Source: Myxococcus sp. (GTDB lineage Bacteria > Myxococcota > Myxococcia > Myxococcales > Myxococcaceae). From it: a DNA stretch of 38,499 bases. The notes below the pieces were generated by a model. The model did not search any database and was not told the DNA's origin. It saw only the letters and a list, made by a program, of their open reading frames with translations. How positions within the stretch are numbered: position 1 is the first letter of the stretch; the number at the start of each line of letters is the position of its first letter. Below, in pieces: positions 9,070 to 14,317 of the stretch. The stretch lies in the NCBI GenBank assembly GCA_014879945.1, contig JACSRE010000130.1:1-38499 (forward strand), written 5' to 3'. The translations under genes and the position numbers were made by a program.

Positions 9070-9086
9070 TGGACTTGACGAGTCCA
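9070..9086 (+). promoter_or_regulatory. inverted repeat O1, IscR/Rrf2-like operator over a -35 hexamer
   Basis: TGGACTTGACGAGTCCA is a perfect 6-5-6 inverted repeat. Its core GACT-N5-AGTC has the same half-sites and spacing as the E. coli IscR type 1 site as remembered (GACT-RWWWY-AGTC), although the central five bases differ. It contains TTGACG (9075-9080), a good -35 element. A repressor bound here would exclude RNA polymerase. Confidence 0.55.
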
Positions 9087-9104
9087 CATCGCAGAGGTTA
9101 CTGA
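9075..9104 (+). promoter_or_regulatory. candidate promoter of the isc operon
   Basis: The -35 is TTGACG at 9075-9080, inside operator O1. A -10 is expected 17-18 bases later, where TTACTG/TACTGA (9098-9104) is the only A/T-rich candidate in this GC-rich region and is a weak match to TATAAT. The -35 is the stronger part of the call. Confidence 0.4.
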
Positions 9105-9118
9105 CAAATCACTGATTC

Positions 9119-9135
9119 TGGACCTGATTGGTCCA
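9119..9135 (+). promoter_or_regulatory. inverted repeat O2, second IscR/Rrf2-like operator
   Basis: TGGACCTGATTGGTCCA is a second perfect 6-5-6 inverted repeat with the same outer half-site TGGAC and the same CAT following it as O1. It starts 49 bases after O1 and ends 20 bases before the iscS start, so it overlaps the probable leader. Two near-identical operators flanking the promoter suggest cooperative or layered control. Confidence 0.5.
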
Positions 9136-9155: not shown

Positions 9156-10517
9156 ATGAAGCTGCCGATCTTCATGGATTACCACTCGACGACGCCCATG
9201 GACCCGCGGGTCCTCGAGGCGATGAAGCCCTACTTCGTCGAGGACTTCGGCAACGCCGCGTCGCGCAACCACGCCTTCGGGTGGAAGGCCGAAGCGGCGG
9301 TCGAGAAGGCCCGCAAGCAGGTCGGCAAGCTGATCGGCGCCTCGGACAAAGAGATCGTCTTCACCTCGGGCGCGACCGAGTCGAACAACCTCGCCATCAA
9401 GGGCGCGGCCGAGTTCTACAAGGACAAGGGCGACCACATCATCACCCTCTCGACCGAGCACAAGGCGGTGCTCGACACCTGCAAGCGGCTCGAGCGCCAG
9501 CGCATGGACCGCATCGAGGAGCTCAAGCTCCAGCGGTTGATGGAGCTGACCGGCCGCGACGTGACGCTCGACGAGCTCGCGACGCTCGAGATCAAGCACG
9601 ACCTCGAGAACGACGCGCTCCTCAAGCGGTGGATCGACAAGGTGCGGGTCGGCGCGCGGGTGACCTACCTGTCGCCGAAGAAGGACGGCCTGATCGATCT
9701 CGACGAGCTGCGCTCGGCCATCACCGACCAGACCATCCTCGTGAGCGTGATGTTCGCCAACAACGAGATCGGCGTGGTGCAGCCCCTCGCCGAGATCGGC
9801 GCCATCTGTCGTGAGAAGGGCGTGCTCTTTCACACCGACGCGGTGCAGGGCGTCGGCAAGCTGCCCTTCGACGTGGAGCAGGTGAAGGCCGACCTGGTGT
9901 CGCTCACCGCGCACAAGATGTACGGCCCCAAGGGCGTCGGCGCCCTCTACGTGCGCCGCAAGCCCCGCGTGCGCATCGCCCCCATCATCGACGGCGGCGG
10001 GCACGAGCGCGGCATGCGCTCGGGCACCCTCAACGTCGCGGGCATCGTCGGCTTCGGCGCTGCGGCCGAGATCGCGAAGGACGAGCTGGCCGCCGAGGCC
10101 CAGCGTGTCGGCGCGCTCCGCGATCGCCTGTGGGCGGGCCTGCAGAAGAAGCTCGACCTGCTCACCGTGAACGGCTCCTGGGAGCACCGCCTGCCCGGCA
10201 ACCTCAACGTCTCGTTCGCCTACGTCGAGGGCGAGGCCATGATGATGGCCATCAAAGACGTGGCGGTCAGCTCCGGCTCGGCCTGCACCTCGGCGTCGCT
10301 CGAGCCCAGCTACGTGCTGCGCGCCCTCGGCGTGGACGAGGACATGGCGCACTCCTCGATCCGCTTCGGGCTCGGCCGCTTCTCGACCCAGGAAGAGGTC
10401 GACTACGTCATCGAGATCGTGATCGCCGCCGTCAAGAAGCTGAGGGACATGTCGCCGCTCTACGAGATGGCCAAAGAGGGCATCGACCTGAAGTCGATCG
10501 AGTGGACGGCGCACTGA
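9156..10517 (+). CDS. iscS: cysteine desulfurase IscS with internal insertion
   Basis: 453 aa from ATG 9156, preceded by GAGG at a good distance. A TTG at 9138 in the same frame is less likely because it abuts operator O2. IscS is a PLP enzyme that takes sulfur from L-cysteine and passes it as persulfide to IscU. The PLP lysine is in [11 protein letters not shown] (K254) and the sulfur-carrying cysteine in SSGSACTS (C377). The segment HTDAVQ carries the Asp that holds the PLP ring. E. coli equivalents are K206 and C328, so about 48 residues are extra. They lie around residues 115-166, between LDTCKRLER and ARVTYLSPK, and are charged and helical (for example [15 protein letters not shown]). 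First gene of a complete isc operon. Confidence 0.96.
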
Positions 10518-10554: not shown

Positions 10555-10986
10555 ATGGCCTACAGCGACAAAGTCATCGAGCACTACGAGAACCCGCACA
10601 ACGTCGGCACCCTCGACAAAGAAGACCCCAACGTGGGCACCGGCCTGGTCGGCGCTCCGGCCTGCGGCGACGTGATGCGCCTGCAGCTGAAGATCTCGGA
10701 CGACGGCATGATCCAGGACGCGAAGTTCAAGACCTTCGGCTGCGGCTCGGCCATCGCGTCGTCGTCGCTCGTCACCGAGTGGGTGAAGGGCAAGTCGATC
10801 GAAGACGCGGTGACCATCACCAACAAGGACATCGCCCAGGAGCTGTCCCTGCCGCCGGTGAAGATCCACTGCTCCGTGCTGGCCGAAGACGCCATCAAGG
10901 CCGCCATCAAGGACTTCCAGGAGAAGCGCGCGCGCCGGCAGTCGGGCGACGCCTCTGCCGTGAAGCAGCCGACCACCCAGCCGTAA
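10555..10986 (+). CDS. iscU: iron-sulfur cluster scaffold protein IscU
   Basis: 143 aa. IscU is the scaffold on which [2Fe-2S] clusters are built from iron and sulfur delivered by IscS. The three ligand cysteines are present at C37 (GAPACGD), C63 (FGCGSA) and C106 (IHCSVL), with H105 alongside. The chaperone recognition motif LPPVK (99-103), bound by HscA, is intact, which agrees with hscB and hscA lying downstream. The C-terminal tail after residue 125 (RARRQSGDASAVKQPTTQP) is longer than in E. coli (128 aa) and looks disordered. It begins 37 bases after iscS. Confidence 0.97.
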   Translation: MAYSDKVIEHYENPHNVGTLDKEDPNVGTGLVGAPACGDVMRLQLKISDDGMIQDAKFKTFGCGSAIASSSLVTEWVKGKSIEDAVTITNKDIAQELSLPPVKIHCSVLAEDAIKAAIKDFQEKRARRQSGDASAVKQPTTQP

Positions 10987-10997
10987 CCGGGGCCCTC

Positions 10998-11396
10998 ATG
11001 ACCGCCGAAGCCAGCGCCACCTTCATCGCGCCCAACCCCAACGCGCTGCCCACCGGCAAGCCGACGGGCAAAGGCATCGGCATCGACGACAGCGCCGTGG
11101 GGCGGCTGAAGAAGCTGCTCGCCGAGCGAAACACCCCCAACGCCGGCCTGCGCATCGCGGTGAAGGGCGGCGGCTGCTCGGGCCTCGCGTACCACATGGA
11201 GTGGGCCGAAGAGGCCAGGCCCCGCGACAAGACCTTCGAGCGCGACGGCGTTCGCGTCTTCATCGACCCCAAGAGCTACCTCTACCTGATGGGCACCGAG
11301 CTCATCTTCGAAGAGACGATCATGGCCTCGGGCTTCAAGCTGCGAAACCCGAACGAGAAGTCGGCCTGCGGGTGCGGCGACTCGTTCTCGGTGTGA
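10998..11396 (+). CDS. iscA: A-type iron-sulfur carrier IscA
   Basis: 132 aa from ATG 10998; the open frame extends upstream through iscU out of register, so that part is not coding. IscA-type proteins carry clusters from the scaffold to target enzymes. The three conserved cysteines are in GGGCSG (C60) and SACGCG (C124, C126). The first 28 residues (to PTGKGIGID) are an extra tail, low in structure, compared with the roughly 107-residue E. coli IscA. An ErpA-like assignment is possible, but the operon position favours IscA. It lies 11 bases after iscU. Confidence 0.93.
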   Translation: MTAEASATFIAPNPNALPTGKPTGKGIGIDDSAVGRLKKLLAERNTPNAGLRIAVKGGGCSGLAYHMEWAEEARPRDKTFERDGVRVFIDPKSYLYLMGTELIFEETIMASGFKLRNPNEKSACGCGDSFSV

Positions 11397-11400
11397 CGCC

Positions 11401-11922
11401 ATGACCCACTTCGACGTGTTCGGCCTCACGCCCGCCCTCGAGCTGGACGTCAAGGCGCTGGAGCAGCAGCTGCGAGCGCTCTCGCTCGAGTTCCACCCAG
11501 ACCGGTTCGCCCAGGCCGACGCGCGCACCCGCCTGGCGGCGCTCGAGAAGACGACCGCGCTCAACGACGCCTTCAAGGTGCTGCGCGACCCGGTGAAGCG
11601 CGCCTTCTACGTGCTCAAGCTCAAGGGCGTCGATCTCGACAGCGAGGCGAGCGCCGCGCAGGTGAAGATGCCGCTGAGCTTCCTCGAAGAGGTGATGGAG
11701 CGACGCGAGCGGCTCGAGGGCCTCAAGCACGCGCGCGACGTCGAGCAGGCCCGCGCCATGGCCGACGAGATCGAGCGCGAGAAGTCGGCGGCGCTGGAGC
11801 GCGCGAAGGTGGCGCTCGAGCGCGACGACGTGCCCGAGGCGACCCACCAGCTGGGCCGCGTGCGGTACCTGAGCCGGTTCATCGAAGAGGTCGAGGCGCT
11901 CGAAGAGGAGGCGTTGTCGTGA
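11401..11922 (+). CDS. hscB: Fe-S co-chaperone HscB (J-domain)
   Basis: 173 aa. The N-terminal J domain carries HPD (H32, P33, D34 in FHPDRF), which stimulates the ATPase of HscA. The C-terminal three-helix part (about 85-173, rich in Glu and Ala, with [16 protein letters not shown] and the closing [16 protein letters not shown]) is the IscU-binding region. Length matches the E. coli protein (171 aa). It starts four bases after iscA, and its stop overlaps the GTG of hscA by four bases, so the two chaperone partners are translationally coupled. Confidence 0.95.
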
Positions 11923-13760
11923 AGGGCTTCTTGCAGATCCACGATCCCCTCAAGCCGAAGGGGCACGCCGTCGGCATCGATCTGGGCACCACCAACTCGC
12001 TCGTCGCGGCCGTCATCAACGGCAAGCCCACCTCGCTGGCCGCGGACGAAGGCGACGAGCGGCTCCTGCCGTCGGTGGTGCACTACGCCCAGAACGGCGG
12101 CGTGCTGGTGGGCAAGCGCGCGGTCGAGCTGCTCGCCACCGCGCCGACCGACACCATCAAGTCGGTCAAGCGCTTCATGGGCAAGTCCCTGGGCGATCTC
12201 GAGACGAAGAAGCTGGGCGCGTACCAGTTCGTCGAGGGCCAGGGCGTGGTGCGCTTCCAGGTCGCCGGCGGGCAGCCCGTCACCCCCATCGAGGTCAGCG
12301 GAGAGATCCTCCGCACCCTCAAGCGGCGCGCCGAGTCGGCCTTCGCCGGCAAGGTGGAGCAGGCCGTCATCACCGTGCCGGCGTACTTCGACGATGGGCA
12401 GCGCCAGGCGACCAAGGACGCGGGGCGGCTGGCGGGGCTCGAGGTGCTCCGGCTGCTCAACGAGCCCACCGCGGCGGCGCTGGCCTACGGGCTCGACAAG
12501 AACGCCCAGGGCACCTTCGCCGTGTACGATCTCGGCGGCGGCACCTTCGACATCTCGATCCTCGAGCTGGTGGACGGCGTGTTCCAGGTGAAGTCGGTGG
12601 GCGGCGACTCGGCGCTCGGCGGCGACGACTTCGACCGCGCCATCGTGCAGCGCGCCCTCGAGGCCTTCGGCATCACCGAGCCCTCGAACACGCAGATCGC
12701 CCAGCTCCTGCAGGCCGGCCGCGCCGCCAAGGAGCGCCTCACCGAGCTCCCTGAGAGCTCCCTCACGCTCGACGGGCGCGTCTTCTCGTTCACCCGCGCC
12801 GACTTCGACGGGTGGATCGCCCCGCTCCTCCAGAAGACGGGCGTGGCCGTGCGCCGGGCCCTCAAGGACGCCGGGCTCACCCCCGCCGACATCAAGGGCG
12901 TGGTGCTGGTGGGCGGTTCGACCCGCGTGCCCGCCGTGCGCAGCTACGTCGAGGCGCTCTTCGGCAAGCCGCCCCTCGCCGACATCGACCCCGATCAGGT
13001 GGTGGCCCTGGGCGCGGCGATTCAGGCCGATCTGCTGACCAACGCCGACCGCCAGGACGAGGTGCTGCTGCTCGACGTCATTCCCCTCTCGCTGGGCCTC
13101 GAGACCATGGGCGGCGTCGTCGAGAAGCTGATCCACCGCAACAGCGCCATTCCCACCGCGCAGGGCCAGGTCTTCACCACCTTCCAGGACGGCCAGACCG
13201 GCATGGACATCCACGTGGTGCAGGGCGAGCGCGAGCTGGTGCAGGACAGCCGCTCGCTGGCCCGCTTCCGCCTCTCGGGTATTCCGTCGATGCCCGCCGG
13301 CATGGGCCGGGTGCAGGTGACGTTCTCGATCGACGCCGACGGCATCCTCTCGGTGAAGGCGAAGGAGCAGACTACCGGCGTCGAGCAGGCCATCACCGTC
13401 AAGCCGACCCACGGCCTCACCGACGAAGAGGTGGAGCAGATGCTGCTCGACTCCATCGAGCACGGCGAAGACGACATGCAGCGCCGCCAGCTCGCCGAGC
13501 AGCAGGTCGAGGCGACCCGGGTGCTGGCCGACGCCCGCAAGCAGCTGCGCGAGAACGGCGACCTGCTCGACCCCGAGGAGCGCAAGCGCTTCGAGCTGGG
13601 CGTCGAGGCCCTCGAGGCGCTCGCGCAGTCCACCACCGATCACGCCTCCCTCAAGAACGCCATTCACGAGCTCGACGAGCAGGCCAGGCCCTTCGTCGAG
13701 CGAATCATGAACCGCGCCATCTCGAAGGCCGCGGTCGGCCACACCATCGAATCGTTCTAG
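11919..13760 (+). CDS. hscA: Fe-S assembly Hsp70 chaperone HscA
   Basis: 613 aa from a GTG overlapping the hscB stop. HscA binds the LPPVK loop of IscU and uses ATP to release the finished cluster. The ATPase domain shows [12 protein letters not shown] (about residue 19), [27 protein letters not shown] and [15 protein letters not shown]. The substrate-binding part starts after [17 protein letters not shown] and is followed by a helical lid ending near residue 613. Length is close to E. coli HscA (616). It is clearly distinct from the second Hsp70 in this window (24152-26977), which has an N-terminal PilZ domain and lacks most of the lid. Confidence 0.96.
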
Positions 13761-13765
13761 CGGCC

Positions 13766-14149
13766 ATGCCCAAAGTCCACTTCCTCAGCCCCCTGCAGGA
13801 TCTGACCGTCGAGGCCCCCGAGGGCACCTCGCTCCTCGAGGCCGCCGAGCTCGGGCACGCGCAGGTCGGCCACTCGTGCGGCGGCGTCTGCGCCTGCTCC
13901 ACCTGCCACCTCTTCGTTCGCAAGGGCCTCGACTCGCTCTCGGAGCAGGACGACCTCGAGATGGACCGCCTCGACCTCGCCTTCGACGTCCGCGCCATCT
14001 CCCGCCTGGGCTGTCAGGCCAGGCTGGGCGCCGAAGACGTCGAGGTGTGGATCACCGAGGAGTCCCTCAAGGCCTGGATGGACGAGAACCCCGACGCCCG
14101 CAAGGCGCTCGAGGCCGAGGGCAAGTGGCCTCCCGCCAGGTTCACCTGA
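13766..14149 (+). CDS. fdx: isc-type [2Fe-2S] ferredoxin with C-terminal extension
   Basis: 127 aa from ATG 13766, five bases after the hscA stop. This ferredoxin supplies electrons for cluster assembly. Ligands follow the adrenodoxin pattern C-X5-C-X2-C-X35-C: C38, C44, C47 and C83 in HSCGGVCACSTCH and RLGCQA. C42 is an extra cysteine inside the loop, as in some relatives. After the usual end of the fold (about VEVWI) there are some 30 extra residues (TEESLKAWMDENPDARKALE), predicted helical, that E. coli Fdx lacks. Last gene of the isc operon; no iscX-like gene follows. Confidence 0.93.
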   Translation: MPKVHFLSPLQDLTVEAPEGTSLLEAAELGHAQVGHSCGGVCACSTCHLFVRKGLDSLSEQDDLEMDRLDLAFDVRAISRLGCQARLGAEDVEVWITEESLKAWMDENPDARKALEAEGKWPPARFT

Positions 14150-14231: not shown

Positions 14232-14315
14232 GCCCAGGTGGCGGAATTGGTAGACGCGCTAGATTCAGGGTCTAGTGCCGGCAACGGCGTGGAGGTTCGA
14301 GTCCTCTCCTGGGCA
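14232..14315 (+). tRNA. trnL-CAG: tRNA-Leu (anticodon CAG)
   Basis: An 84-base cloverleaf with acceptor arms GCCCAGG and CCTGGGC, discriminator A, D-loop GAATTGGTAGA and anticodon stem CTAGA/TCTAG around loop TTCAGGG (anticodon CAG, reads CUG). It has a long variable arm (CCG-GCAA-CGG) and a T-loop GGTTCGAGTCC. The long arm marks it as class II and leucine fits. CCA is not encoded. It is alone between its own promoter and terminator. Confidence 0.97.
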
Positions 14316-14317
14316 CT

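Follow-up and report, generated by a model that had tools for sequence, protein, structure and literature searches.

The isc operon described here is preceded by two inverted repeats, O1 and O2, and is not accompanied by a gene for the protein that would read them, which raises the question of what controls the operon and from where. No Rrf2 gene is encoded in the window, that is, in the whole stretch of 38,499 nucleotides that was analyzed. The first-pass annotation described O1 and O2 as perfect inverted repeats, each directly followed by CAT, with a TTGACG resembling a -35 element inside O1, and this description was borne out in front of iscS (table 1). Operators of this type have been described before, as the RisR box of Myxococcus xanthus. 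O1 and O2 are very probably docking sites for an Fe-S-sensing repressor; their function as operators is well supported, and it is the identity of the binder that we infer.

Table 1. Features of the isc promoter and operon in the window, and the Rrf2 gene found elsewhere in the same genome (G000).
Feature	Position	Strand	Basis
O1, RisR-type box operator	9070..9086	+	TGGACTTGACGAGTCCA, TGGACT-N5-AGTCCA; sequence, conservation, matrix score
Putative -35, TTGACG, inside O1	9075..9080	+	Conservation
Putative -10, TTACTG, 17 nt past the -35	9098..9103	+	Conservation
O2, RisR-type box operator	9119..9135	+	TGGACCTGATTGGTCCA, TGGACC-N5-GGTCCA; sequence, conservation, matrix score
iscS, cysteine desulfurase	9156..10517	+	PRK14012 IscS, 695 bits (cut-off 548)
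iscU, scaffold	10555..10986	+	TIGR01999, 226 bits (cut-off 192.4)
iscA-like A-type carrier	10998..11396	+	TIGR00049 subfamily, 119.8 bits (cut-off 58.8); IscA equivalog, 102.5 bits, below cut-off 150.6
hscB, co-chaperone	11401..11922	+	TIGR00714, 83.1 bits (cut-off 46.75)
hscA, chaperone	11919..13760	+	TIGR01991, 826 bits (cut-off 708.55)
fdx-like ferredoxin	13766..14149	+	TIGR02007, 87.8 bits, below cut-off 132.1; best model, operon position
tRNA-Leu (CAG), next after fdx	14232..14316	+	ARAGORN, Rfam RF00005
Type A Rrf2 gene	G000:C206:60245-60715	-	Lone Rrf2 of the genome

In M. xanthus, RisR was footprinted on T(t/g)GAC-N7-GTCC(t/a) in front of isc and suf, holo-RisR represses both operons with a [4Fe-4S] cluster inferred, and mutation of the RisR site raised expression 3- and 4-fold (Sourice et al. 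2023, PMC9973013). Both O1 and O2 read TGGAC-N7-GTCCA and so have this core, and they lie on the isc promoter, directly before iscS. The two loci share the core, the position before iscS, the operon order and the tRNA-Leu(CAG) in which the M. xanthus operon likewise ends (PMC9973013), so that this placement of the tRNA is old in the family. They differ in that the window has two boxes whereas M. xanthus isc has one, that O1 covers the -35 whereas the M. xanthus box covers the -10 and the start, and that, unlike in M. xanthus, neither a RisR-type gene nor a suf operon was found in the genus of the window. An insert of about 50 residues is present in the IscS of the Myxococcaceae (9470-9645 in the window, residues ~105-163); the protein has 453 residues here and about 402 in neighboring families, whose matches to the window IscS begin at residue 164.

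The promoter hexamers were placed by conservation, because a consensus promoter scan found no sigma-70 site. The TTGAC within the box is kept in 20 of the 21 promoters that have an O1-type box, and a hexamer of the TTA/TA type lies at the same 17-nt distance in these 21 promoters.

As a bare palindrome, the pattern is at chance level genome-wide, with four exact places against six for the reversed control pattern. Whether matches to TGGAC-N7-GTCCA must be exact or may have one mismatch, O1 and O2 are the sole ones in the window, and this one-mismatch count of 2 compares with a shuffle mean of 1.08 and is reached by 29 of 100 shuffles. Conservation goes beyond chance, both among the congeners and across the family, and a reading of the repeats as chance palindromes was rejected on this account. 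In an alignment of seven species of the genus, with columns tallied by hand, 16 of the 17 columns of O1 and 9 of the 12 arm columns of O2 are invariant, compared with 7/32 between the boxes and 2/30 upstream. A position matrix trained on the family, with the window's own genome in the training set, scores O2 at 39.0, the top of the window, and O1 at 22.3, the next unrelated place in the window reaching -2.3. When at most one mismatch is allowed, a longer pattern has 18 matches in the seven genomes of the genus (7 for the reversed-pattern control), and 16 of these are at iscS; the strict box is thus found in the genus essentially only before iscS, which gives the circuit the look of a single repressor serving a single operon.

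The box extends throughout the Myxococcaceae. IscS was detected in 95 of 96 genomes of the family, and a matching box, scored as present where a 25-mer agrees with AATGTGGACC-N5-GGTCCACATT at 14 or more of 20 positions, precedes iscS in 88 of the 89 genomes examined (outside the 89 upstream regions are G049 and G081 (gene cut in both), G085 (no IscS), G075, G077, G078 and G079, and also the second IscS copy of G042). The sole exception is G008, whose contig gives just 33 bases upstream, with GGACC-N5-GGTCCACATT still visible in them. Both O1 and O2 are present in 15 genomes, at a spacing of 43-50 bp, and O1 alone in 6; the other 68 are without the O1 signature, and as a rule their single box overlaps the -10 and the start region. 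The contig-cut G008 is counted among the 68, and the five other examined genomes of its genus have O1 and O2. The box therefore shifts its position in the promoter between genera but keeps its sequence, which is the behavior of an operator. Looping between O1 and O2 in a fixed phase is not proposed, as the spacing varies from 43 to 50 bp across the 15 genomes. Second IscS copies (64-66% identity) occur in some SUF-bearing genomes; the region upstream of the copy in G042 (L233, G042:C43) has no box.

The first-pass annotation had expected the regulator to be encoded away from the operon, and the absence of any Rrf2 gene from the genome would have spoken against its reading. Exactly one Rrf2 gene, which we refer to as type A, was found in the genome (7.7 Mb, 98.7% complete, 448 contigs), on a different contig from isc. 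A further expectation, that of an Rrf2 gene with these repeats in front of it, is not borne out in this genome but holds in relatives, where the gene in question is RisR. No RisR-type gene was found in this genome or in its six congeners, no RisR gene upstream of suf was found in this genome, and SUFBD searches gave no match in the seven except for a 27-residue fragment in G094. Exactly one Rrf2 is present in six of the seven genomes, the window's included; the congener G092 has three, but only one of these appears in the type A search at E 1e-10, a level that RisR reaches in other genomes. The genus thus seems to lack the Myxococcus repressor, and a different relative probably uses the same site.

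Our preferred reading is that isc is repressed from O1 and O2 by an Fe-S-sensing Rrf2 protein and that in this genus the repressor is most likely type A, not RisR; we consider this probable. The type A protein of this genome belongs to the Rrf2 superfamily (PF02082, 117.4 bits, cut-off 30; TIGR00738, 105.2 bits, cut-off 73.3). Its nearest named equivalog is TIGR02944 (suf_reg_Xantho, a SUF system regulator), on which it scores 77.5 bits and the type A protein of G045 95.1. Neither reaches the cut-off of 110.65, which a RisR-type relative (L080, G019) passes with 138.3 bits. In a tree of 75 Rrf2 proteins, in which several other rows are long-branched and unsure in placement, type A sequences from Binatota to Myxococcaceae form one clade (100/99) and the RisR clade is separate (100/100).

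Support for type A comes, besides its being the lone Rrf2, from the protein itself, from its co-occurrence with the lack of SUF, from its association with the box in outgroups and from a locus in the Binatota. The RGxxGGY wing of the wHTH is invariant in 8 aligned type A proteins, as are C96, C104 and C110, which would provide the three cysteines of a cluster site; the RisR-type protein of G063 has cysteines at 92, 102 and 108, the positions given for M. xanthus RisR (PMC9973013). Type A is present in 43 of the 96 family genomes, and these comprise 27 of the 30 SUF-less against 16 of the 66 SUF-bearing Myxococcaceae (type A was called above 170 bits, the next match being at 73, and SUF at SUFBD above 100 bits; the cross-count was tallied by hand from two tables and consists of plain counts). 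The SUF-less genomes without type A are G048 (78% complete), G049 (90%, with a RisR-clade gene) and G084 (87%, no Rrf2). It is thus chiefly from genomes with RisR that type A is absent.

For 54 genomes from outside the Myxococcaceae that encode a close IscS, the 250 bases upstream of the gene were scored at p<=0.01, using a matrix for which only sequences of the family had served as training set. A box precedes iscS in 31 of the 40 with type A versus 1 of the 14 without, an association that is partly phylogenetic, because these are related genomes and the 14 come mostly from other groups; a control stretch further upstream has a box in 1 of the 54. The clearest case is group f3, with canonical boxes in 9/9. 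Two of its genomes, G178 (the contigs of G099) and G185 (the contigs of G098), have one clear Rrf2, which is type A, together with canonical boxes; a further marginal Rrf2 match was seen in G099 (29.7 bits, in a 526-aa frame) and one below the cut-off in G098. In the Binatota, locus L267 (1-990) comprises the end of hscA, then a putative iscX frame recognized by eye, then an A-like Rrf2 gene; on a different contig of this genome, iscS is preceded by a box. L267 represents an isc-linked version of this regulator clade; its hscA end was recognized by reading the sequence, the search of type A loci for isc genes having missed it.

Other observations count against type A. Its own gene, including that of the window's genome, has no box upstream in 40 of 42 family genes and 10 of 10 outgroup genes scored. 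A box precedes all 11 RisR-clade genes scored (by position matrix, with p as low as 100 shuffles allow; among the 11 are the divergent G049b and G052b), and in the genera g5, g6 and g20 exact boxes often lie right before Rrf2 genes that adjoin sufB/sufD-type genes. Nor is type A beside isc in the Myxococcota loci examined: searches of 34 type A loci gave no iscS, iscU or hscB matches, and five matches to the hscA query near type A (~41-43% identity) were taken for DnaK. Furthermore, the recognition helix of type A differs from that of RisR, and the box is missing from 9 of the 40 outgroup genomes in which type A occurs; of 23 f2 genomes with type A, 8 lack it. RisR-clade genes are also present in some f2-type genomes. 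The box also occurs without type A in G201 (86% complete) and without any detected Rrf2 in G084.

Autoregulation of type A through the box was rejected as unsupported except in G082 and G083. In these two genomes, which belong to one genus, the type A promoter (L280, L281) has a half box, AATGTGGACC, between TTGAAA and TATAAT/TATCAT, so that type A may be autoregulated in this genus, and in this genus only. At several of the inspected loci within and outside the family (L001 and L234-L266), the neighbor of the type A gene is a divergently oriented gene whose small product starts with MIDLHSHT and looks PHP-like by eye.

A regulator from outside the Rrf2 family, common to the whole order, might instead bind the box, with RisR reading it where present and type A regulating something else. 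This would fit the persistence of the box in RisR-only genomes, in type A-only genomes and in G084, and the lack of type A autoregulation through it. We nevertheless hold it to be unlikely: outside the family the box tracks type A, the Binatota have an A-like gene immediately 3' of hscA, G084 is only 87% complete, and the sole protein shown to bind the box is an Rrf2 (PMC9973013).

The assemblies of this genus are fragmented, with 448 contigs in the window's genome, and not all of them are complete, so RisR itself could regulate isc here and have been missed. That all seven genomes are without a RisR-level match, and without SUFBD save for the fragment mentioned, with completeness at 95% or more in four of them, makes this very improbable.

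The IscR type 1 consensus has a YYGACT arm and GAC-N7-GTC spacing. The first-pass annotation had taken O1 and O2 for IscR/Rrf2-like operators with type 1 spacing; what stands of this is that they look like Rrf2-type operators before isc, but the published match is the RisR box and not the type 1 site, with which nothing is shared besides the GAC-N7-GTC spacing common to both. The likeness to E. coli IscR lies in such an operator before isc, in this spacing and in the logic of negative feedback; the differences are the TGGAC arms, the regulator encoded outside the operon and an Rrf2 protein far below the IscR models. Core spacing and location would thus suit a classical IscR acting through a type 1 site, yet the arms fit the RisR motif better than YYGACT, the only Rrf2 gene lies on a separate contig and not first in the isc operon, and its product scores 61.7 bits on TIGR02010 (cut-off 207.55) and 45.8 on PRK10857 (cut-off 275). 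No classical IscR was found, the type 1 reading was rejected on the protein models and the published RisR motif, and we give a classical IscR hardly any credence.

It is just as hard to credit that O2 is a hairpin of the leader RNA, or that the two repeats arose as palindromes by chance across a conserved -35. A 6-bp stem closing a 5-nt loop can be drawn for O2 and the bare pattern is at chance level, but shuffled sequences fold as well as the leader does (z -0.54), the leader has no Rfam match, and O2 is conserved away from the -35. In 60 distinct boxes, whose three core pairs are invariant because they were selected by the search pattern, the left base of the outer arm pair varies (G 38, T 15, A 6, 1 other) whereas its right partner is C in 59; there is thus no compensation. 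The hairpin was rejected on folding and on this lack of compensatory change.

Returning to repression by type A, the isc operon would be under negative feedback from a dimeric Rrf2 repressor that senses Fe-S clusters. By analogy with RisR, when clusters are plentiful the holo-repressor would sit on O1, over the -35, and on O2, just past the start, and block RNA polymerase; upon loss of the cluster, the apo-protein would release and the promoter would be freed. The binder in this genus would most likely be the type A protein, encoded far from isc, and its gene would be outside its own control. Binding by type A, its carriage of a cluster, repression and the promoter positions are predicted from sequence.

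For the order as a whole, we see roughly even chances that the ancestral isc repressor was type A, inherited vertically, unlinked and usually not autoregulated. RisR, tied to suf, would then have taken over the operator in Myxococcus and its neighbors, with repeated loss of type A following, and SUF-less genera such as that of the window would have kept type A together with a doubled operator.

A full-text literature search, with most subscription journals outside its coverage, turned up no publication that deals with type A, or with RisR boxes in species other than M. xanthus. As far as this search shows, the twin boxes in a lineage without RisR or SUF are new, as is a distinct Rrf2 clade as their likely reader. 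Whether ISC was acquired by transfer is a question left open in the M. xanthus paper (PMC9973013); the presence of ISC with the box throughout the family and in several neighboring families speaks for ISC being old and SUF being patchy. These results extend the one studied Myxococcus circuit to the order, in which the RisR box predates the arrangement of RisR plus suf and reaches beyond it, and they point to an unstudied Rrf2 clade whose members likely regulate isc in genomes without RisR. If this is true, the operator outlived a change of regulator, and the isc promoter would provide a compact example of one regulator replacing another while the operator is conserved.
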